A DNA stretch of 64,000 bases from Sphingobium sufflavum (GTDB taxonomy: Bacteria > Pseudomonadota > Alphaproteobacteria > Sphingomonadales > Sphingomonadaceae), in the NCBI RefSeq assembly GCF_021403115.1, contig NZ_JAJSSH010000015.1:1-64000 (forward strand), in the 5' to 3' direction. The notes below the pieces were generated by a model, which worked only from the letters and a program-made list of their open reading frames with translations, made no database searches and was not told the DNA's origin. Numbering within the stretch: the first letter of the stretch is position 1; every line of letters begins with the position of its first letter. Position numbers and translations under genes: made by a program. This document shows positions 14,473 to 37,080 of the stretch, piece after piece.

Positions 14473-14687
14473 CCGACATAACCCGGGCGCAGGCCGATCT
14501 GGGCTGGGAACCGACGATCCGGCTGCGGGAGGGACTTGCACGGACCATCCTCTATTTCGAGGGATTGCTGAAGGAGAAGGAAAGCCACCGCCTGCGGGGC
14601 AGGGCCGGAATCCCGTCGGCAGTGCTCGGCAATATCATCCTGCCCGCGTCGCAGCAGGGGGCATCGCCGGGGGCATGGACGCCCTGA
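14473..14687 (+). pseudogene. NAD-dependent sugar epimerase/decarboxylase, 3' remnant
   Basis: The plus-strand frame reads RPDITRAQADLGWEPTIRLR followed by EGLARTILYFEGLLKEKE. This is the standard C-terminal tail of UDP-glucuronate decarboxylase/dTDP-glucose-dehydratase-like extended SDRs. Nothing upstream in that frame resembles the family. It meets the truncated co-polymerase head-on at about 14473, so one rearrangement removed the starts of both genes. The stop used here (14687) lies past the usual family end, giving an unlikely ~30-residue extra tail. This is a fossil, not an active enzyme. Confidence 0.7.
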
Positions 14688-28705: not shown

Positions 28706-28728
28706 AAACGGGCAGCTTTCGCCACCCG
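28706..28728 (-). terminator. Original downstream terminator of tRNA-Pro (attL side)
   Basis: On the minus strand CGGGTGGC-GAAA-GCTGCCCG (28728-28709) pairs over 8 positions with two G-T wobbles and runs into TTTTCGTGTTT. A 17-base match to the terminator at 36954-36978 lies the same distance from the tRNA 3' end. It was presumably the tRNA terminator before integration. Confidence 0.65.
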
Positions 28729-28757
28729 CTCAGCAACCGCCAATGTTGGGGAATTTC

Positions 28758-28805
28758 TTTGGTCGGGACGAGAGGATTCGAACCTCCGACCCCCACACCC
28801 CCAGT
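28758..28805. repeat. attL, 48-bp direct repeat (3' half of tRNA-Pro)
   Basis: 48 bases identical to 37002-37049: the tRNA-Pro 3' end with CCA, the T arm and the anticodon arm through the loop. There is no 5' half, so this copy is not a tRNA gene. It marks the left end of the integrated element, 148 bases before the integrase ATG. Confidence 0.93.
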
Positions 28806-28952
28806 ATGGGACACATGAATACTTAGCTGCACGTCGTAGCACGCAGACACCTGCAAAAGCCTTTTAGTTCAATGGCTTGAAGTCCTTGCAAGGTCGCAGC
28901 AACTCGTCGTAACCCGTTCTTCCGTGCTAGATATGTGCTAGAGGAATTGGGA

Positions 28953-30212
28953 ATGGCGAAGATCACGAAAGCATTCATTGACCGGGTCAAAGCACCGGAG
29001 ACTGAATATGACAATCAATGGGATGAATCGGTTAGGGGCTATGGGGTCCGCGTTACTTCGGGCGGCAAGAAGGTGTTCTTCGTGCAGGGGCGTGTGAGGG
29101 GTAAAGCTGTCCAGTTCACGCTCGGTCCCTACGGCGTGCTGACCGAGGATGCCGCGCGCAAGAAGGCGCAGAGCGTGCTCCAGCAAATGCGCGAGGGGAT
29201 CGACCCGCGTGACGCGCAAAAGGAAGATGCCGCTGCCAAGGTGACGCTCCGCGAGGTTGCCAACGCCTATCTGTATGAGCGCCCGGGCATGTTGCGGGAA
29301 GCAACGGTCGTTGAGAAGAACCGCCATATTGAGACGGTGTTCGGCGCGTGGAAGGACAAGCCCATCGCGTCCATCACCGAGGCGGACGTGCGCAAGCGTT
29401 ATACCGAGATGGCGACGAAGGGGCTGCGCGGCACCCCAGCGCCAGGGCAAGCCCAGATCGCTATGACCACGCTGTCCGTTCTCATCAATTTCGCCATGCG
29501 GCGCTACAAGCGGGCAGACGGAACGCCCCTCATCGCGCACAACCCGGTCGCCGCCATGAAAGGTGACTGGCCCGGTTTCAAACCCCGCACCCGCGACATT
29601 GACGAGAAGCATGTCGGCGCGACGTGGAACCTGCTCACGGAAATGCGCGCCCATCCGAAGAATCAGGATGCACTTGCCGGTATCGACCTTGTGCGCTTCC
29701 TCATGCTCACGGGTTGTCGCCGGTCGGAAGCGGCGAGCCTTGAGTGGCGCACCGTCAATCTGGACGAGGCATGGTTCCACCTCGCCAACACCAAGAACGG
29801 CAATCCGGTTTGGCTCCCGTTGTCGTCGCTTGCGGTAGCGCTGCTCAAGGCGCGCAAGCCCAAGGACGATGACAAGGACGCCAGCCTTTATTGCTTCCCG
29901 TCGCGTGCCAAGGGTGGCTTCGTTACCGACACGCGCGCCCCGCTGGAGCGCATCGCCAAGCTGATCGACCAGCCCATTTCGGCGCATGACCTGCGGCGCA
30001 CGTTCGTATCAACGGGCGTGGCAACGCTTGGCATCGACCTCTACAAAATGGAGTTGCTGACCAATCACGTGCCACAGGGGGTCACGGCGAAGCACTACCT
30101 GCGCACCCAGCGCCTCCAATATCTCCTACCCGAAGCCCAGCTCATTTCGGACTGGATTGAACAGCAGGCAGCGAAGGCGAGCGGTGCCAATGTGGTGGCT
30201 CTCCGCGCTTGA
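28953..30212 (+). CDS. Tyrosine site-specific recombinase (integrase), P4/DUF4102 type (419 aa)
   Basis: Integrates and excises the element at tRNA-Pro. An N-terminal arm-binding DUF4102-type domain (MAKITKAF, then YGVRVTSGGKKVFFVQGR) is followed by the core-binding SAM-like domain (~95-185) and a C-terminal catalytic domain. The latter has R256 (LTGCRRSEAASLEW), H345-x-x-R348 (SAHDLRRTF), H372 and nucleophile Y382 (HYLRTQ). The start at 28953 has GAGGA 7 bases upstream. The direct repeat GTGCTAG-N3-GTGCTAG just upstream (~28926-28941) may be arm-type sites. A strong terminator follows at 30323. Confidence 0.95.
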   Translation: MAKITKAFIDRVKAPETEYDNQWDESVRGYGVRVTSGGKKVFFVQGRVRGKAVQFTLGPYGVLTEDAARKKAQSVLQQMREGIDPRDAQKEDAAAKVTLREVANAYLYERPGMLREATVVEKNRHIETVFGAWKDKPIASITEADVRKRYTEMATKGLRGTPAPGQAQIAMTTLSVLINFAMRRYKRADGTPLIAHNPVAAMKGDWPGFKPRTRDIDEKHVGATWNLLTEMRAHPKNQDALAGIDLVRFLMLTGCRRSEAASLEWRTVNLDEAWFHLANTKNGNPVWLPLSSLAVALLKARKPKDDDKDASLYCFPSRAKGGFVTDTRAPLERIAKLIDQPISAHDLRRTFVSTGVATLGIDLYKMELLTNHVPQGVTAKHYLRTQRLQYLLPEAQLISDWIEQQAAKASGANVVALRA

Positions 30213-30322
30213 CGCACGGCGGGGAGCGCACAGCCTCGCGAACAGCGGCGAGCGGGTAGCGCTGCCGGGGTAGGGGCGACAGCGCGGCGATCGTGCCCCA
30301 CGCCGCCTTACAGCGAAGGTCC

Positions 30323-30353
30323 AAAAGGGACAGGTGCTTAGCCTGTCCCTTTT
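30323..30353 (+). terminator. Rho-independent terminator after the integrase gene
   Basis: Perfect 12-bp stem AAAAGGGACAGG / CCTGTCCCTTTT with a 7-base loop. The symmetrical A and T ends make it work in both directions. It separates the integrase from the regulatory region that follows. Confidence 0.88.
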
Positions 30354-30359
30354 CGTGAC

Positions 30360-30598
30360 AGGCCGGGCAACAATCGCCGCATTAAGGGGCTTGCACGACT
30401 TACTGCGAGCCGTTTAAGGTAACTGCCGTTGCCTACGGGTGACCGCGGCCCGGCTCGCGCCCACGAGGGAAGACCCGGAAACGACCCCGGACATGCGGGA
30501 GGGTGAAAGTCCCTCTTAGTCCCCCGGGCACTCTGCCGGAGGGGGTTCCTTTGGCGCTGGTGACCACAGCTCATCTCATTCGAGTTGAAGGTCACGCC
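30360..30598 (+). other. Structured non-coding region before the HTH gene
   Basis: 239 bases without a convincing ORF. A promoter-like TTGCAC with TTTAAG 16 bases on (30391-30417) starts a GC-rich stretch with several hairpins. These are GAGGG-TGAAAGT-CCCTC (~30501-30517) and CCCCC...GGGGG around GGCA/TGCC (~30522-30545), the latter followed by TTCCTTT. The order resembles an attenuated leader or small regulatory RNA ahead of the replication operon. P4-like satellites use such an RNA for immunity, but no sequence match is claimed. Confidence 0.45.
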
Positions 30599-30799
30599 AT
30601 GAATCCCGATCACATGAGCTTCGAGCAGCTTTGCGAGCTGTTCAACTACGCGCCCAAGGGGCGTCCCCTCGATCCCAAAGAAGCTGCCGAACTGCTCGGT
30701 CTCTCCGTCGATACGTTGGAGGGCTACCGCACGCGCGGCGTGCTGGGATGGCTGGCGGTCGGTGCCCGCTACAGCACCAGCGAGCAGGTCGCCGCCTGA
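30599..30799 (+). CDS. Small helix-turn-helix protein, AlpA/excisionase-like (66 aa)
   Basis: A 66-residue protein with an MerR/AlpA-type helix-turn-helix (LDPKEAAELLGLSVDTLEGY, then RTRGVLGWLAVGARYSTSEQ). Such proteins in integrated elements act as excisionase or activator of the integrase. The start (MNPDHMSF) follows GAAGG; the frame is open further upstream without support. It lies between the structured region and the DUF3987 gene, in the position of alpA/xis in P4-like islands. Confidence 0.75.
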   Translation: MNPDHMSFEQLCELFNYAPKGRPLDPKEAAELLGLSVDTLEGYRTRGVLGWLAVGARYSTSEQVAA

Positions 30800-30855
30800 C
30801 CCATTCCCTCACGAATGGAGGCAGGGCGCGACCCCTGCCTCCGAAAGGTATCAAC

Positions 30856-31020
30856 GTGAACACCGCTACATTAACCGATCTCGCGGAGAGGTCGCAAACA
30901 TCGACATGCCCCGAACATTTTACGAAATATGTTGCGCCGCGTAAAAATTCGCCGAGTGCGGATGGCGATGCGCGCAGATTGACTACCGGCCCGACAGGCT
31001 CGGAGGTTCATCATGGCTGA
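30856..31020 (+). CDS. Possible small protein overlapping the DUF3987 start (54 aa)
   Basis: A GTG-initiated frame (VNTATLTDLAERSQTSTC, later FTKYVAPRKN) with AAGG upstream that ends 8 bases inside the next gene. This arrangement suggests translational coupling. No family is recognised and the end of the frame is low-complexity. It may be a leader peptide or chance. Confidence 0.35.
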   Translation: MNTATLTDLAERSQTSTCPEHFTKYVAPRKNSPSADGDARRLTTGPTGSEVHHG

Positions 31021-32464
31021 TCTGAATGAACTGGTCCCGGTTCCGGGCAGCGACCTCCCTATGTCATCAGACGAGTGGGCTAACGTCATATCTGGCATGG
31101 AGCGTATGCGTGGCGTAGATGATCTGCCTAAGCCAAGCCGCAAGCGTAAAGGTCAGCAACAGGACGAAGGGGAGTTCAGCGACTATGTTCTAAGCCGCCC
31201 AGAACTCCACAATGTTGCGCTATATGGCGTTCTCCGCGACATGGTGGATGCGGCGTGTGCCAATTCCGAAGCCGTGCGACCCACTGTCGCGATCCATATC
31301 CTCGCGCGCTTCGCTGCCACTATTGGCCGCAGCGCCTATATCCAGATTGGCGATCAGCGACGGCATCTTCGGATGAATGCGCTTATCGTCGGCCCGACTG
31401 CGAAGGGTCGGAAGGGCACCAGCGCCGAAATGCCCAACGAGTTGTTTCGTCAGGCAGAGAACCTGCTGATCGGATGTTGGCCGCTTCGGAAGCTGACTGC
31501 ATTGGCCACAGGTGAGGGGCTGATCTACATGGTCCGAGACCCTGTATATGCAGATGACGGGAAGGAAGTGGACGCTGGCGTGCCCGACAAGCGCTTGCTG
31601 TTTGACGTCAGTGAATTTGCCGGGGTGCTGGCACAAGCGCGGCGCGAGGCGGCCACCATCAGCACCGTGCTGCGGGACGCCTTCGATGGCGTTAAGCTGG
31701 TCACGCCGACCAAGACCTCCTTCTGTGAAGCGTCCGATACCCATATCGTCGTTATCGGATCGGTCCCTGAGACGGAGATTGTGAAGACGCTCACCAGCAC
31801 GGATATAACGAACGGCCTCGCGAACCGCTTTCCTATGTTCTACTCTGTACGGACCAAGATCGTGCCGATGCCCAAGGCGACCGACGCCAAGCTCATGCAG
31901 GGCTTCGCTGAGCACATTTGTTGGGCGATCTATGAGGCGACCAAGCGGTTAGAGGTTTCTCTTGATGCTGATGCATTGGACTACTGGTATGACGTCTATC
32001 ACCGGCTGGAGGAAAAGACGCATCCGCCAGCAGTGGCCGCTCTCCTTGCCCGCCAAAGCACCTATACGTTGATCTTCGCTGCCCTGCTGGCTCTACTGAA
32101 CCGGCAGACGGCCATTACCAGCGACCACCTCGACGCCGCGCTGGCATGGGTTCAGTATTGGGAAGACACGACGCTCTTCGTGTTTTCCAACGGAGAGCAG
32201 AATGAACAGGCCATTCGTATGAAGGGTCTAAAGGATGAGATTGTAGTGGCGATCACCACGCTGGGCGGTGTGAAGGTGAAGCACAGCGACGTGGCGGACA
32301 AGGTGACGAACAAATACCAAAAAGCATGGCCGCTCGCGAAGGATGTGAAGCTCGCAATGGAACTTCTGGAGCGAGAGTCCCCGCCGCGCATCTATTCTGA
32401 AATGTTAGCCACAGGTGGGCGACCCAAAAACCTGTATAGCTTGACACCGCAGGGCGACGAGTAA
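31013..32464 (+). CDS. DUF3987-type ATPase/primase-helicase-like protein (483 aa)
   Basis: Resembles the DUF3987 family of element- and phage-borne replication proteins. After a charged N-terminus, an ATP-binding loop GPTAKGRKGTS lies at 127-137. A Walker-B-like DVSEF and VIGSVPETEIVKTL with TNGLANRFP (sensor-like) follow. The C-terminus may be winged-helix (VKVKHSDVADKVTNKYQKAW). It probably unwinds or primes the element for replication after excision. GGAGG precedes the ATG. It is the largest gene of the island. Helicase activity is inferred from family. Confidence 0.8.
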   Translation: MADLNELVPVPGSDLPMSSDEWANVISGMERMRGVDDLPKPSRKRKGQQQDEGEFSDYVLSRPELHNVALYGVLRDMVDAACANSEAVRPTVAIHILARFAATIGRSAYIQIGDQRRHLRMNALIVGPTAKGRKGTSAEMPNELFRQAENLLIGCWPLRKLTALATGEGLIYMVRDPVYADDGKEVDAGVPDKRLLFDVSEFAGVLAQARREAATISTVLRDAFDGVKLVTPTKTSFCEASDTHIVVIGSVPETEIVKTLTSTDITNGLANRFPMFYSVRTKIVPMPKATDAKLMQGFAEHICWAIYEATKRLEVSLDADALDYWYDVYHRLEEKTHPPAVAALLARQSTYTLIFAALLALLNRQTAITSDHLDAALAWVQYWEDTTLFVFSNGEQNEQAIRMKGLKDEIVVAITTLGGVKVKHSDVADKVTNKYQKAWPLAKDVKLAMELLERESPPRIYSEMLATGGRPKNLYSLTPQGDE

Positions 32465-32693
32465 CGCGCAGGGGGATAAGTGAATCGACGTGAAGCCCTG
32501 CGCCGTCGCTTATTCCCCCTTGCCCCCGAACTTGGCTCCCTCGGAGCGGGGCAAGGAAGCTATTGTAAAATAGCTTTTCCCCCTTTTTCCCCTTTCCTTT
32601 TCTCTATTACCATTTCTCCGCCTCTTTCACCCCTGTCCCGCACATATAGAGGGTGGCCGGGGGTAAAAAGGGAAATGGGGGTTAAGCGGCTCG

Positions 32694-33539
32694 TCAGCCT
32701 GCTCCTGCATGGTCTTGAGGATTGCGACGAGCCAGCGCCAGTTGCCACTTCACATAATTCTTATGGCGACAGGTGTGGCAAGAGAATGTTCCATGCTCGT
32801 CATACTTCATTTCCCAGAAGAACCTCCAAGGAATGCAGTTTGTCGCGCCGCAGTTATCGCAATCGATATCGGCGGTCACAGATTCGAATACAGTTTCTTC
32901 CCCCTCCTTCGTGACCTTCCAAGTCGCCTTACAGTCCGGGCTGATACAATGGATATGCTGCCCCTCGCGCAGAAGCTTTTCCCGCCGCTTGTTCTTGGTT
33001 CCACATGAACAATCGAATGAAACCTCCATGCCGATACCGGAAAAGGTCATTGTGCCTTTCGCAAGTCTTTCCAGTTCAGCAACGACCTCTAGTACCTTTG
33101 CACGGGTTTCCGCCTTGTCTCCGTAGTCGGGTATGTGGTCGTTCTTATCCTTCGGTAGGCGGACATGCAGCGCCAAACGAGCTACCGCATTCCACATCTT
33201 GACGATTTTCTTTGCGTCGAAGCCAACCTCGGTTCCGATCTCGACGTAATCCTCGTCTTCCGGTTTTACGTCATCGCTGGCGGGGGTCTTGCTCATGCTG
33301 AGCGTCATCGTCTCGGTTAGGTGAGCATCAACGTCGCTGATCAGGGTATTAATGACCCCGCCGGGCTGCCACTTCCGAAGCTGGTCATGAGAAATGTAAT
33401 CATGTCGCTGTCGAAGCCTGTCGTAACAAACCTTCTCCAACGCCAATCGTGCTTCCAGCGCGGCATAAGTTATGCTGGCCTCGGTATCTTCTTCCAGCAA
33501 GGCCTTGATGCGGTCGATGGTTGGCTGAAGCTTTATCAT
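32694..33539 (-). CDS. Hypothetical protein with two zinc-ribbon-like Cys sets (281 aa)
   Basis: No family recognised. Residues 1-165 are mainly helical. The C-terminus has two Cys clusters: C177/C179 with C198/C203 (CSCG...CISPDC), and C227/C230 with C254/C257 (CDNC...CHTC). Each fits a zinc ribbon or rubredoxin-like knuckle, as in DNA- or RNA-binding adaptors. It is the only minus-strand gene of the element, divergent from 33854 across a large inverted repeat and convergent with the DUF3987 gene. The start at 33539 (MIKLQPTID) is preferred; the longer frame crosses the inverted repeat. Confidence 0.6.
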   Translation of the reverse strand: MIKLQPTIDRIKALLEEDTEASITYAALEARLALEKVCYDRLRQRHDYISHDQLRKWQPGGVINTLISDVDAHLTETMTLSMSKTPASDDVKPEDEDYVEIGTEVGFDAKKIVKMWNAVARLALHVRLPKDKNDHIPDYGDKAETRAKVLEVVAELERLAKGTMTFSGIGMEVSFDCSCGTKNKRREKLLREGQHIHCISPDCKATWKVTKEGEETVFESVTADIDCDNCGATNCIPWRFFWEMKYDEHGTFSCHTCRHKNYVKWQLALARRNPQDHAGAG

Positions 33540-33597
33540 TGGGCGATTGTGGCACAGGTTGCTGTCGTGGTCACCACATGCAGCCAGCAGCGCCGGG

Positions 33598-33688
33598 CAC
33601 AGGGGCACGAAAGCTGCACCGTCGCTAGCAGGGGTAGGGCAACCCCCTGCCACCGCTACAGCGCCAGCACAGCTTTCGTGCCCCTGTG
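33598..33688. repeat. 19-bp perfect inverted repeat with nested hairpin
   Basis: CACAGGGGCACGAAAGCTG (33598-33616) and its exact complement (33670-33688) enclose 53 bases that contain a second hairpin (GCAGGGG 33628-33634 / CCCCTGC 33644-33650). It lies in the 314-bp gap between divergent genes of the element and could be a replication or transfer origin, cruciform operator or structured RNA. Confidence 0.85.
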
Positions 33689-33780
33689 GTCATCAGGCCC
33701 AAAGCCTCGGCCCACAAATATGCTATGTGACAGCCGCTCGCGCCTGAACTGACCTAAGTAACTGTTATTACAATTAAATC

Positions 33781-33853
33781 GCTTGCACGACTTTCACCGG
33801 TCTCCCTAGCTTGTAGCCAATGTCTAGCCGTATCCAGCTTGGGAGTTCGATAA
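33781..33853 (+). promoter_or_regulatory. Promoter-like region upstream of the 250-aa gene
   Basis: Contains GCTTGCACGACTT (33781-33793), identical to 30389-30401 before the HTH gene. The shared TTGCAC may be a -35 element or the binding site of an element-encoded activator. GGGAG precedes the ATG at 33854. Confidence 0.45.
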
Positions 33854-34606
33854 ATGTCCGATGATACCGACACCCGTATTTCGCCCACGCTCCACCCCGG
33901 CATCGCAGGCGAGATTGCAGATTACGACGACGAGACGCGCCCGCTACTTGGCCAGACCGAGACGGCGGTGAGCGAAGCCTTCAAGGCGTTGCAGTCCATC
34001 CATAACGCCAAAGAGGGCGCGAAGCTCAACCCCACGCTCAACGACTTTGAACAGCTTGTCGCAGTGGACGATCACGCCATCAAGGTCATGAAGCGGGTGG
34101 AGGGCATTTGGGACCGAGCGATCGACACGCTGAACAACAACGTCTTCGCCATGGAGAAGGACCTTTACGCGCCGGTCGAGCAGCGCGCGACCGCTACCAT
34201 GGCTTCGGAAATTCGGCGGCACTTCGCCAGCCTCGAACAGGGGCCGCGCATGAATGCGCTGCGGAAGGCGATTGAAGCGGGTGATGCGGTGACGGCGACC
34301 GCCGTGTTGGGCGCGCCCAGCTACCTGTCGGGGTTCGAGCCAGACCTTCACGCTGAATATCTCATCGACTGGCACAACGCCCAGCGCCCGCTCGAAGCAA
34401 AGAAGATCAGGGCCATGAAGGCCGCCGCCGACATGCTCAACAACCGTTTCAAGCTCCTGACCAGTGCGGTCGAGAAGGCGGTCGGCGTTCATGAGGAATA
34501 TCATGAGGACCGGCAGGGTCGCCGCACCCTCGCTCGGACGTGGACGGCCGGGGAGATACGCAATCGCGTAAAAGCGTCAAATGAACGCTTCGCCGTGCCG
34601 GTCTGA
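33854..34606 (+). CDS. Hypothetical protein of the integrative element (250 aa)
   Basis: Not recognised. Acidic N-terminus (MSDDTDTRISPTLHPG), then a mostly helical protein. A moderately conserved-looking segment (LGAPSYLSGFEPDLHAEYLI, followed by DWHNAQRPLEAKKIRAMKAA) and a basic C-terminus (RTWTAGEIRNRVKASNE) come next. No membrane segment or Cys motif. It starts a co-directional run of small genes reaching the att site. Phage-type accessory function is possible but unproven. Confidence 0.65.
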   Translation: MSDDTDTRISPTLHPGIAGEIADYDDETRPLLGQTETAVSEAFKALQSIHNAKEGAKLNPTLNDFEQLVAVDDHAIKVMKRVEGIWDRAIDTLNNNVFAMEKDLYAPVEQRATATMASEIRRHFASLEQGPRMNALRKAIEAGDAVTATAVLGAPSYLSGFEPDLHAEYLIDWHNAQRPLEAKKIRAMKAAADMLNNRFKLLTSAVEKAVGVHEEYHEDRQGRRTLARTWTAGEIRNRVKASNERFAVPV

Positions 34607-34639
34607 TCGGCTCCTGTTCTTTACAGTTCGAGGCATCTC

Positions 34640-35134
34640 ATGACCGAACAGATTGCACCGCCTTGGGGGACAGACTGGAAGCCTGCATCCCCGCCAGTGC
34701 CGGTTGAAGCGGACGGCGGCAAGGCATGGCAGTTCCAGCCCGGCCAGAGTGGCAACCCCCGTGGGCGTCCGCCGGGGCGACCGGATCGGCGGTTATTGGC
34801 CACACAGCAGATGCTCGACGAGATGCGGAACATCATCGCCGTGCTGGTCGGTAAGGCGCTGGAGGGCGACACGAACGCGGCAAGCATCGTCTTGGCGAAA
34901 ATCCTGCCCTCGGTGAAGGCGCAGGCGGAGAAGGTCAGCTTCGAGTTCGATGCTGCCGCGCCGATCAGCGAGCAGGTTGCCCAGGTGCTGGACGCCGTTG
35001 CCGCTGGCGCGGTTGCCCCTGATGTGGGGCGGCTCATCATCGACAGCATCAAATCGCTCTCGGACGTGCGGGCGACCGAGGAGCTGGCCGCTCGGATCGA
35101 GGCGCTTGAGGAGGCTTCCGATGCCCGGCGCTGA
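34640..35134 (+). CDS. DUF5681-containing phage-type protein (164 aa)
   Basis: The N-terminal FQPGQSGNPRGRPPGRPDRR (about residues 32-51) is the DUF5681 signature, seen in many phage and prophage proteins often near terminases. The rest is helical (VGKALEGDTNAASIVLAKIL) and ends in a charged coil. It supports a phage or phage-satellite origin of the element. It lies 33 bases after the 250-aa gene with GAGG before its start. Function unknown. Confidence 0.72.
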   Translation: MTEQIAPPWGTDWKPASPPVPVEADGGKAWQFQPGQSGNPRGRPPGRPDRRLLATQQMLDEMRNIIAVLVGKALEGDTNAASIVLAKILPSVKAQAEKVSFEFDAAAPISEQVAQVLDAVAAGAVAPDVGRLIIDSIKSLSDVRATEELAARIEALEEASDARR

Positions 35135-35204
35135 AATGGAATTATTTGCACATCGGTTGCGAAAGTCGGCGATGCGACCGGCCTTCGCCCAGATTGACAC
35201 ATAG
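35121..35204 (+). CDS. Possible 27-aa peptide
   Basis: ATG at 35121 lies within the end of the DUF5681 gene, after GAGGAGG. The peptide starts MPGAEMELFAHRLRKSAM and stops 12 bases before the next gene. It could be a coupling peptide that keeps ribosomes moving; no family is known. Confidence 0.25.
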   Translation: MPGAEMELFAHRLRKSAMRPAFAQIDT

Positions 35205-35216
35205 GGGCACCGGCTC

Positions 35217-35636
35217 ATGACGACGATAACCACACAGCGGAACAGGGTCGTAACCGACCAGCCCGAACCAGACGACGTAATGGTCTATATCGGCTGGACA
35301 GGTCCCACCGATGAACCGGGCGTGCGCCGCACCCTCTCAACCCGCTACATGCCCATCGCTTCCTATCAGGAGTGCTTGGATTGGGCGGTGGGCATCGCGG
35401 ATCAGATGACGCACCCGCTCTACGTCGTCCCGCTCAACCATAACGACATTCTCCGCACCGACCGCTGGACGCCGTTTGCCGGCCTGCTCGCCACCCTGAC
35501 GGATCAGGAGCGCGGGGCGCTGCGCCGAGATGTGGTCAACAGCATGTGCGAGATCATGCGCGACTGCGACGACTGGCACGTCCGTGCCGATGCCCACGAC
35601 ATTCTTACTCAACTGAAAGTGATACATCATGACTGA
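35217..35636 (+). CDS. Hypothetical protein of the integrative element (139 aa)
   Basis: Not recognised. MTTITTQRNRVVTDQPEPDD opens an acidic protein with VYIGWTGPTDEP and a C-terminal helical part (RGALRRDVVNSMCEIMRDCDDW). GGGG lies before the ATG. The stop overlaps the next small gene by 8 bases, so the run is probably one transcript. Confidence 0.6.
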   Translation: MTTITTQRNRVVTDQPEPDDVMVYIGWTGPTDEPGVRRTLSTRYMPIASYQECLDWAVGIADQMTHPLYVVPLNHNDILRTDRWTPFAGLLATLTDQERGALRRDVVNSMCEIMRDCDDWHVRADAHDILTQLKVIHHD

Positions 35637-35781
35637 CAAAACCGAAGAACTGAAAGCTGACATTTCCCTTGAGGAGCGCCAGCGCATTGACCGCGAGAAG
35701 CAGAAGGAAATCCGCGAGGGCCTTCGCAACCGGCACTTGAACTTGCCCACCGAGGCATGTGCTGTGGATCGTCGCGGCTGA
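35629..35781 (+). CDS. Small charged hypothetical protein (50 aa)
   Basis: MTDKTEELKADISLEERQRI and the following helix are extremely rich in Glu/Lys/Arg, consistent with one long coiled helix. It overlaps the preceding stop by 8 bases and ends 4 bases before the next ATG. Unknown function. Confidence 0.5.
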   Translation: MTDKTEELKADISLEERQRIDREKQKEIREGLRNRHLNLPTEACAVDRRG

Positions 35782-35785
35782 CCAC

Positions 35786-35992
35786 ATGAGCCTCCGTGCC
35801 CTCCAACGTCGCGTGAAGCGGATTGAGGAGGGCCGGAAGCCGCGACCGTCGCCCATCGTCATATGGTTCGGCTCATGGGATGCCTTCGTTGACGGGGCGT
35901 ATGCGGCGGTGAGTGCGGGCGCGCTGGACGCGGAATTCCTCGACGTGGTGGACGCTCTCCGCGCTTGGGAGGCCAGCGGGGTTTGGCAGTAA
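35786..35992 (+). CDS. Small hypothetical protein (68 aa)
   Basis: MSLRALQRRVKRIEEGRKPR is a basic helical N-terminus, followed by a more ordered PIVIWFGSWDAFVDGAYAAV segment. An in-frame ATG at 35759 inside the preceding gene is a weaker start. It is part of the small-gene run before the membrane protein. No family recognised. Confidence 0.5.
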   Translation: MSLRALQRRVKRIEEGRKPRPSPIVIWFGSWDAFVDGAYAAVSAGALDAEFLDVVDALRAWEASGVWQ

Positions 35993-36057
35993 AGCCCTTA
36001 AACTGCATTGCGTTTCTGCATCAGCTATTGCTAGCTGTCGCTCCAGGGGGCGATTAA

Positions 36058-36924
36058 ATGCAGTCGATATTGGTTTTTTTATCCGAACCGTTGGTCGGAA
36101 CCGTGCTTGGATTCATCGGTGTAGCACTGGCGGTATATTTCTACTTCAAATCAAAGCAGGTTGCGCGTCTTGCTTTGCAGTCAGAGGAAATTGCAGTTGT
36201 TGGAAGCGCGACGTCCGCATTCGACCAGCATCTGGAAATTCGCTTTGGAGGCGAAATTGTCCAGCGCGTAACTAAGACGCGGGCGATTATATGGAACTCA
36301 GGTAACACGACGATAGAGGGCAGCCGAATAGCTGATGCGGACCCCTTGCGTGCGGTTGTTGGTGAGGGAAGCCAAATCCTAAAGGTCGAATTGGTTCGGC
36401 AGTCTCGGCCTGTGAATGATGTAAAGTTCACCATTGATAGGCGCCAGGTCTTTTTCAATTTTGACTTTCTAGATCAGAATGATGGATTCGTTGTCGAGTT
36501 CATACACTCTGGCATGAGGCGAGAGCTCGAATGGTTTGGTACACTTCGGGGCATTCCAGAGGGCCTGAGCACGTTCAATTCACGGAACCCTATTGAGCGT
36601 TTGGCTCTCCACCTGCCGAAGAAGGTGCTTCGGACCGTTGGCGTTGCAGCCCCTCTCATCGCTGCGCTGGCGGGAGCCCTAATGGCTGCGGGAGGGCTTT
36701 TCAGCGATCATCTCGGGAAATTAGCACCAGCGTTTTACTGGCCATTAGAGGCAAAACCTGGACCGCAATGGTCTATGGTTTTAGGTGGCCTGCTTTATGC
36801 GTCGCTTCCGCTGGCGATGTTGTGGATGAGGCGTCGTCGCTTTCCAGCTGCTTTAGAAGTGCGAGCGAAGCCGCAGAGCGAACAAGAGGAAGCCTCTAAC
36901 GGCACAAAGGAGTTAACCAGCTAG
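36058..36924 (+). CDS. Membrane-anchored hypothetical cargo protein (288 aa)
   Basis: Not recognised. One N-terminal transmembrane helix (13-30), a ~160-residue beta-rich soluble domain (EIRFGGEIVQRVTKTRAIIW, then NSGNTTIEGSRIADADPL), and two C-terminal transmembrane helices (193-213, 239-257) with a charged tail. GGGGG precedes the ATG. It is noticeably lower in GC than the rest of the window, stands next to attR with no partner gene, and looks like recently acquired cargo. That is the position where satellites and islands often carry defence or exclusion genes. Confidence 0.7.
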   Translation: MQSILVFLSEPLVGTVLGFIGVALAVYFYFKSKQVARLALQSEEIAVVGSATSAFDQHLEIRFGGEIVQRVTKTRAIIWNSGNTTIEGSRIADADPLRAVVGEGSQILKVELVRQSRPVNDVKFTIDRRQVFFNFDFLDQNDGFVVEFIHSGMRRELEWFGTLRGIPEGLSTFNSRNPIERLALHLPKKVLRTVGVAAPLIAALAGALMAAGGLFSDHLGKLAPAFYWPLEAKPGPQWSMVLGGLLYASLPLAMLWMRRRRFPAALEVRAKPQSEQEEASNGTKELTS

Positions 36925-36953
36925 AAATACGCTAGATGAGAGCGGGCAAACAG

Positions 36954-36978
36954 AAACGGGCAGCTTTCGCTGCCCGTT
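36954..36978 (-). terminator. Element-borne terminator of tRNA-Pro (attR side)
   Basis: Stem AACGGGCAGC / GCTGCCCGTT (10 bp) with a GAAA loop on the minus strand, 26 bases beyond the tRNA CCA and followed by TCTGTTTG. It resembles the attL-side copy at 28706, so the element supplies a replacement terminator when integrated. Confidence 0.75.
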
Positions 36979-37001
36979 AAGTGCTTGTTAAAGCTGGTAA
37001 A

Positions 37002-37049
37002 TTTGGTCGGGACGAGAGGATTCGAACCTCCGACCCCCACACCCCCAGT
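37002..37049. repeat. attR, 48-bp direct repeat inside tRNA-Pro
   Basis: Exact copy of 28758-28805 forming the 3' half of the functional tRNA gene. Identity ends just inside the anticodon stem, typical for tyrosine-integrase targets in tRNA genes. Confidence 0.93.
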
Positions 37050-37080
37050 GTGATGCGCTACCAGGCTGCGCTACGTCCCG
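37004..37080 (-). tRNA. tRNA-Pro (anticodon GGG)
   Basis: 77 bases including encoded CCA. Acceptor CGGGACG pairs with CGTCCCG, the D arm is GCGCAGCCTGGTAGCGC, and the anticodon loop CTGGGGG gives anticodon GGG. The T loop is TTCGAAT. Half of the gene is supplied by the integrated element, which keeps it intact. Confidence 0.96.

Follow-up and report, generated by a model that had tools for sequence, protein, structure and literature searches.

Introduction

Phage-inducible chromosomal islands (PICIs) carry a gene like that of the small terminase (TerS) without a gene for the large terminase (TerL), together with an integrase, an AlpA-type regulator and a replication gene, and capsid-forming PICIs (cfPICIs) possess capsid, portal and terminase genes of their own. 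P4-like satellites integrate at tRNA genes and carry an AlpA-like regulator; their proteins include alpha, Psu, Delta and Sid. Phage-inducible chromosomal minimalist islands (PICMIs) of the Vibrionaceae are small elements, and the models that describe them include an integrase, AlpA (PF12728 among the models) and a DUF3987 primase (PMC10803314). Here, we describe an 8.2-kb integrative element in a 64,000-nucleotide stretch of the Sphingobium sufflavum genome (contig NZ_JAJSSH010000015.1, positions 1 to 64,000; hereafter the window). Sequence comparisons make it likely that this element is a helper-dependent phage satellite belonging to a sphingomonad family of 8-10 kb integrative elements. The family, recognised by its signature protein p250, is a candidate new family of such satellites, in which the left half appears PICMI-like and the other half different.

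All statements on the gene content of the window element rest on ten proteins scanned against Pfam, PHROGs and PADLOC. Like satellites in general, the element is integrative and lacks capsid and tail genes of its own. Its likeness to PICIs, including the Staphylococcus aureus pathogenicity islands (SaPIs), extends to the integrase, the AlpA-type regulator, the replication protein, the cargo slots, a gene that is TerS-like by its context and comes without TerL and, putatively, dependence on a helper. However, its TerS-like gene encodes a DUF5681 protein, no known capsid-remodelling gene was recognised, no counterpart of p250 was found, and the element is presumably about half the size of a PICI. 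No capsid, portal or terminase gene of the kind that marks cfPICIs was recognised, and no relaxase gene, although a mobilisable element with only an origin of transfer (oriT) would escape such a scan. VEIMEs and tycheposons are small integrative elements as well, a likeness by description, not gene by gene.

These and other marine or soil satellites have been proposed as further satellite families (PMC11389934). A variable defence slot and, putatively, a helper phage are shared with P4-like satellites (PMC8628076, PMC9122126); the P4 proteins have no Pfam or PHROG match among the ten proteins, where distant folds could escape. The genes of the PICMI definition, integrase, AlpA and a DUF3987/DUF5906 primase, are present, though the match of the window helix-turn-helix (HTH) protein to HTH_17 falls below the cut-off; small size and the lack of capsid-remodelling genes are also shared, and multimer packaging as described for PICMIs would fit the lengths reported below (PMC10803314). 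In contrast, PICMI115 measures 6.1 kb against 8.1-10 kb here, the PICMI search model requires fis whereas the window element occupies tRNA-Pro and its relatives tRNA-Lys, tRNA-Ser or tRNA-Pro, and the main text on PICMIs mentions no terminase, unlike the operon of p250 and DUF5681 (PMC10803314). A literature search on satellites in Alphaproteobacteria, Sphingomonas, Sphingobium and related taxa, with most subscription journals outside its coverage, found neither such a family nor any sphingomonad satellite among the papers listed.

An Element in tRNA-Pro(GGG)

The element (28758-37049) lies inside tRNA-Pro(GGG) and is flanked by a perfect 48-nt attachment (att) repeat, part of a direct repeat of 51 nt with 1 mismatch (28758-28808 and 37002-37052) and a spacing of 8,244 nt. 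The left copy, attL (28758-28805), corresponds to the 3' part of tRNA-Pro, and attR (37002-37049) is the 3' part of the tRNA gene that is complete after integration (37004-37080, reverse strand; found by ARAGORN, Rfam tRNA 60.2 bits). An earlier note on this DNA had read a compact 8.2-kb tRNA-Pro element here, and both the repeat and the complete tRNA gene bear it out. It had also proposed a search for the same genes at tRNA-Pro in other genomes: in three genomes of the genus (L222, L223, L224), a related element of the same layout lies between two tRNA-Pro att copies. In L222, a second p68-like gene stands outside attL, which suggests tandem insertions at tRNA-Pro. Four further genomes of the genus (L226-L229; stretches of 4.4-4.6 kb inspected) have the same tRNA-Pro with a single att copy, no adjoining element gene and no p250 match (0/4).

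The ten genes are all on the forward strand except the fourth. The first encodes a tyrosine integrase of 419 aa (28953-30212; Pfam Arm-DNA-bind_3 E 2e-13, Phage_integrase 4e-13; PHROG 1 integrase 3e-39), followed by the AlpA-like HTH protein of 66 aa (30599-30799; HTH_17 1.7e-5, 25.4 bits where the cut-off is 27) and the DUF3987 primase/helicase-like protein of 483 aa (31013-32464; Pfam DUF3987 1.7e-8, above cut-off; PHROG helicase/primase profiles 6e-7 and 2e-6), for which a role in replication is presumed. Next come a 281-aa zinc-ribbon-like protein in a variable cargo slot (32694-33539, reverse strand; Cys pairs by reading of the sequence), p250 (250 aa, 33854-34606) and the DUF5681 protein (164 aa, 34640-35134; Pfam DUF5681 3.8e-12), TerS-like by its gene context. 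The right end holds p139 (35217-35636) and p68 (35786-35992), both found in many relatives, p50 (35629-35781), found in part of the family, and, in a right-hand cargo slot, a 288-aa protein with hydrophobic stretches, membrane-type by inspection (36058-36924).

The integrase, DUF3987 and DUF5681 genes named in the earlier note are thus confirmed above cut-off, and its AlpA-like HTH stands as a sub-threshold match. Its statement that most products belong to no known family holds: the 281-aa protein has no confident family and the 288-aa protein none above cut-off in the three databases. Neither a capsid protein, a large terminase nor a relaxase was recognised, as it had claimed, and the same applies to a coupling protein.

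DUF5681 as a Candidate Small Terminase

Among viral contigs, 140 DUF5681 relatives were found, of which 80 were kept without dereplication. A large open reading frame starts just downstream of DUF5681 in 54 of these 80 loci. In Pfam, these 54 reading frames match Terminase_6C (29), Terminase_6N (20) and Terminase_3 (14), and in PHROGs the TerL families phrog_2 (34) and phrog_38 (32); terminase is the sole named function among the 25 PHROG families listed for them. The large neighbour lies upstream in 15 further loci, five of which match phrog_2 TerL, and no large neighbour was assigned in the remaining 11/80. Outside the family, 12 DUF5681 matches are nearly full-length (L045-L053, L057, L058, L062). 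These were first taken to be without a TerL neighbour on the basis of the downstream side and Pfam, a view that was overturned by a TerL just upstream in six of them: a phmmer comparison with the TerL set matched the upstream genes of L051, L052, L053, L057 and L062, and L058 is a sixth case. In all six, missed by Pfam, TerL precedes DUF5681, whereas the more frequent arrangement puts DUF5681 first. This result raised our confidence in DUF5681 as TerS from slightly better than even to fairly probable. The family hidden Markov model picked out the TerS of another viral contig, L132 (E 7e-5 within that contig).

Some results argue the other way. TerL stands just downstream in none of the 12 nearly full-length relatives, and beside the six with an upstream TerL there are six with no recognised TerL neighbour, including L046, where the neighbour is a DnaB-type helicase. 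A profile comparison of DUF5681 with the TerS of the sister elements described below gave a probability of 8%, and a structural model of DUF5681 (predicted local distance difference test, pLDDT, 75.8) had no match in the PDB at E <= 0.001. The sole literature mention of DUF5681 found, in the text accessible, concerns a Salmonella phage. Taken together, gene context makes it fairly probable that the DUF5681 protein is a TerS.

Sister Elements with TerS and TerL

Weak p250 matches led to a second type of element, which comprises an integrase, HTH, primase, TerS, TerL, a p250-like protein and small genes, and in which no capsid gene was recognised. Its TerL matches Pfam Terminase_6N (1.5e-10) and Terminase_3 (7e-7). 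One such element lies in the S. sufflavum genome itself (L035, C23:483600-503500); it measures 11.8 kb and occupies tRNA-Lys, with att copies at 2763-2814 and 14585-14636. The p250 gene adjoins DUF5681 in one type of element and TerL in the other, the sole clue to its role. In a set of 36 p250 loci, DUF5681 without the family TerL occurs in 29 and TerL without DUF5681 in six, and one locus has neither (L262, with a partial p250); four of the six TerL loci served to build the TerL model, which would miss a TerL from a different family. A relative found at the level of the class, L124, also has TerL beside p250.

Two viral contigs, L131 and L132, carry the integrase, HTH, primase, TerS, TerL and p250-like genes, and their ends overlap by 123 nt (100%) and 120 nt (99%), respectively, so both are circular, with lengths of about 7.7 and 8.5 kb. 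Since their guanine-cytosine (GC) contents are 44% and 51%, their hosts are probably not sphingomonads.

These data bear on the explanation that the element is a PICMI-type satellite in the broad sense, for which integrase, AlpA and DUF3987 suffice, packaging needs only a cos or pac site used on the terms of the helper, and the role of the p250-DUF5681 operon is interference or the remodelling of capsids instead of redirection of the terminase. Integrase, AlpA and DUF3987 are core genes in the PICMI definition too (PMC10803314), and PICMI mobilisation, as summarised in PMC11389934, seems to depend on a DNA motif only. Multimers in full-size heads, known there, are compatible with the length limit described below, and fold and profile comparisons leave the TerS assignment of DUF5681 unconfirmed. 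However, the insertion site is not fis, the operon is kept throughout the family, DUF5681 and TerS-TerL substitute for each other among the p250 loci, and DUF5681-type genes adjoin TerL in many viral contigs. The upstream TerL genes in 6/12 of the nearly full-length relatives also lowered this explanation, from rather unlikely to unlikely.

Shared Layout and Element Length

Relatives largely keep one order: integrase, HTH, replication gene, variable slot, p250, DUF5681, p139, p50, p68, a second variable slot and the tRNA. HTH, p50, p139 or p68 went unrecognised in some of them, and the replication gene is of either the DUF3987 or the AAA_25 ATPase type. Among 30 p250 loci without TerL (hereafter W-type), 18 have a credible att pair, at tRNA-Lys (8), tRNA-Pro (5), tRNA-Ser(TGA) (4) and tRNA-Ser(GCT) (1). 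The pair of L260 is weak (40 nt, 77.5%), the att matches of L022 and L025 (17 nt, 88%) were excluded from the count as chance, and L251 and L252 were left out because they lie on contigs already represented by L020 and L021; in ten further W-type loci no att pair was found, in some because the contig ends there.

The 18 elements with both att sites measure 8,126-9,959 bp, and 12 of them fall within 8,126-8,337 bp, a span of 211 bp, despite differing cargo. The distances from attL to p250 and from p250 to attR compensate each other (r = -0.84 over the 18 elements), also when one element is taken per p250 cluster (r = -0.86 with 9 clusters, -0.89 with 7). Upon random re-pairing of left and right halves, a mean of 5.5 elements fell in the best 215-bp window, and 12 was reached in 0/20,000 shuffles. 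PICMI115 is packaged as about eight copies per full-size head, as reported in PMC10803314, and a length limit would be expected for integer multimers; the lower limit near 8.1 kb may thus reflect packaging of this kind. The sister type is exempt from the limit: integrated members measure 10.6-11.8 kb, and the two circular contigs about 7.7 and 8.5 kb.

Cargo Slots and Possible Helpers

The two variable slots often hold defence-type genes. Their products include TIR proteins (L025, L033), DndB (L023), AbiV (L253), a HEPN protein just at the cut-off (L255), a type II methyltransferase with a restriction enzyme (L223), DNA methyltransferases (L028, L044), and DUF4145, DUF6680 and sub-threshold DUF4365 proteins. 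Ten hand-chosen cargo proteins were submitted to PADLOC, of which seven match and three do not. Defence systems are encoded by many satellites, according to PMC11389934 and PMC9122126. Homologues of the zinc-ribbon-like protein of the window occupy the corresponding slot in two otherwise distant elements (L033, 56%; L043, 59%), which suggests that the gene is swapped as a block. As a separate observation, the right-hand slot of L044, L028 and L041 contains the same gene pair, a DNA methyltransferase of 303-311 aa and a 281-aa partner.

Phage genes lie beside several relatives. Of five viral contigs with a W-type element, three (L042, L043, L044) have a tRNA-Lys fragment at the element end. Beyond it, L042 has an endolysin and a tail fibre, and L043 a primase, TerS, TerL and portal; the DNA that follows in L044 was not recognised as phage. 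In L129, an intact tRNA-Ser is followed by a gene that is endolysin-like by inspection. In the S. sufflavum genome, a prophage with TerS, TerL, a large portal and a major head protein (L269, C1:119000-138500) could act as helper. A second cluster there (L270, C9:1-19500), which encodes TerL, a portal and a capsid, presumably resembles a gene transfer agent. A lambda-type helper was considered for this genome and dropped, as no PHROG 15 TerL was found.

The earlier note had left the choice between a helper-dependent satellite and a mobilisable island. In the latter case, the element would be an integrative mobilisable element on whose unseen oriT a conjugative helper acts, and p250, DUF5681 and the other genes would be unrelated to phages. 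A relaxase is dispensable if an oriT is present, and a 209-nt stretch covering p68 (35778-35986) recurs at 88% identity on the Sphingobium plasmids NZ_CP084402 and NZ_CP084410, one typed conjugative and one mobilisable, neither of which has a gene listed at that place. Yet neither a relaxase nor a coupling protein is found among the ten proteins, p250 adjoins TerS-TerL in the sister elements, the window p250 has no tblastn match in 72,556 plasmid records, and both the narrow length range and the circular TerS-TerL viral contigs are left unexplained; we regard this explanation as improbable. The satellite reading is preferred to it on account of the adjacency of DUF5681 and TerL, the position of p250 beside TerS-TerL, the circular sister contigs and the defence-type cargo.

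Distribution and Structure of p250

Because the DUF3987 proteins of the relatives are divergent, p250 was used as bait. The window DUF3987 protein matched only its own copy among 150 genomes, only at about 25% in phages (3 records), and nothing in viral contigs. A p250 search matched 16/298 genomes sampled in the taxonomic family, some weakly (E up to 9e-4), and a profile search found p250 or a TerL-type relative in 19/94 genomes of the genus; several such elements can share one genome. Across the class, the profile matched 4/385 sampled genomes, two of them outside the taxonomic family, and five further p250 loci, among them one in Sphingobium sp. YR768 and others in two Sphingomonas, came from pattern matching over 84,980 species genomes. 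The search of viral contigs with the single p250 protein returned nothing; the family alignment is too divergent for a pattern search, and searches with closer subsets succeeded. In 50,697 phage records, nothing matched the window DUF5681 protein. L022 is a p250 element with an interrupted p250 on an 8.8-kb contig that bears the name of an acetic acid bacterium, Nguyenibacter; this contig may be a sphingomonad contaminant.

The p250 model is confident and consists mostly of a helical bundle (pLDDT 87.8). VIA-align fold searches returned helical bundles with Z about 10 at best, a level common for such models, and P4 Sid has no row among the 50 VIA-align matches listed. Rows for pore-forming toxins were read as generic long helices and not as identity.

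The promoter region of the p250 operon (33715-33853, forward strand) was aligned with those of 15 relatives, leaving out L024, whose upstream region is unlike the others. This region is conserved, and TTGC[GT]GACC stands at the corresponding position in 10/16 sequences. The window carries a variant, CTTGCACGACTT, both before p250 (33782) and before the HTH gene (30390), the latter within a promoter-like direct repeat (D11, 30381-30401, forward strand) shared with the region upstream of p250; this suggests that the HTH gene and the p250 operon may be under joint control.

State of the Window Copy and Further Features

Compared with L224, whose integrase is 86% identical to that of the window, the window HTH gene has an in-frame 60-nt gap. 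Excision of PICMI115 needs AlpA, as reported in PMC10803314, and since the window HTH protein is shortened in its wing, this copy may be locked in place. The shortened HTH protein and the interrupted p250 genes of some relatives (L022, G044, G057:C1) would also suit a decayed prophage remnant that has lost its head and tail genes and its mobility. Such decay sits poorly with the same compact gene set in 18 att-paired elements at several tRNAs, and a tblastn search of 50,697 phage records with the window p250 came back empty, revealing no phage ancestor that carries this gene; a remnant is very improbable.

The GC content in parts of the element is 0.52-0.58, compared with about 0.62-0.69 in the adjacent DNA. 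A hairpin just inside attR (36954-36980, by inspection), with similar sequence just outside attL at 28706-28756, is possibly a terminator for the tRNA gene. Between the left cargo gene and p250, a repeat search found a strong 29-nt inverted repeat, 86% complementary (33598-33688), which may be a terminator, an origin or a control site. Apart from the tRNA, the Rfam scan gave weak matches only, all below gathering scores; miRNA-like ones among them correspond to this inverted repeat and were judged to be chance.

Proposed Life Cycle and Significance

We propose that, upon infection by a helper or its induction, the element would excise with the help of the AlpA-like protein and be replicated by the DUF3987 protein, and that the p250-DUF5681-p139-p50-p68 operon would be expressed. 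The DUF5681 protein, as a small terminase, would steer the large terminase of the helper to load satellite DNA into helper heads, with p250 as a packaging accessory required with either terminase. Packaging of integer multimers would account for the lower length limit near 8.1 kb, and the cargo genes would shield the host or the satellite from other phages. The window copy, having lost the wing of its AlpA-like protein, may excise poorly.

Several observations weigh against the satellite reading as a whole. Neither excision nor a helper nor a particle was observed. The p250 model has no match at E <= 0.001 in the PDB and none in BFVD, the two cargo proteins of the window have no PADLOC match, and the viral collection over-samples satellites that lie beside prophages. 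About 20 residues of the HTH wing are missing from the window protein, and the wing is kept in 11/11 relatives in the protein alignment. Because the elements are related, the length-window test was repeated on a single element from each p250 cluster and is then weak (median P 0.06 with 9 clusters, 0.24 with 7), and the length is not fixed, as 6/18 elements measure 8.6-10 kb and one circular sister contig 7.7 kb. The satellite reading nevertheless remains the likely one. Its fullest form is a new alphaproteobacterial satellite family that combines p250 with either a hijacking DUF5681 TerS, acting on the helper motor, or its own TerS-TerL without a capsid gene, and in which the DUF5681 type is held at a length equal to or slightly above about 8.1 kb whatever the cargo, so that integer multimers fill helper heads; we put this forward tentatively, as a possibility somewhat short of even.

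About one in five genomes of the genus carries p250 or a TerL-type relative. If these elements are satellites, they would form a store of defence genes within bacteria noted for the degradation of pollutants. The exchange of DUF5681 for TerS-TerL beside p250 offers a clean test case for how satellites redirect packaging, and the two cargo slots point to defence candidates, including the zinc-ribbon-like and 288-aa proteins of the window.

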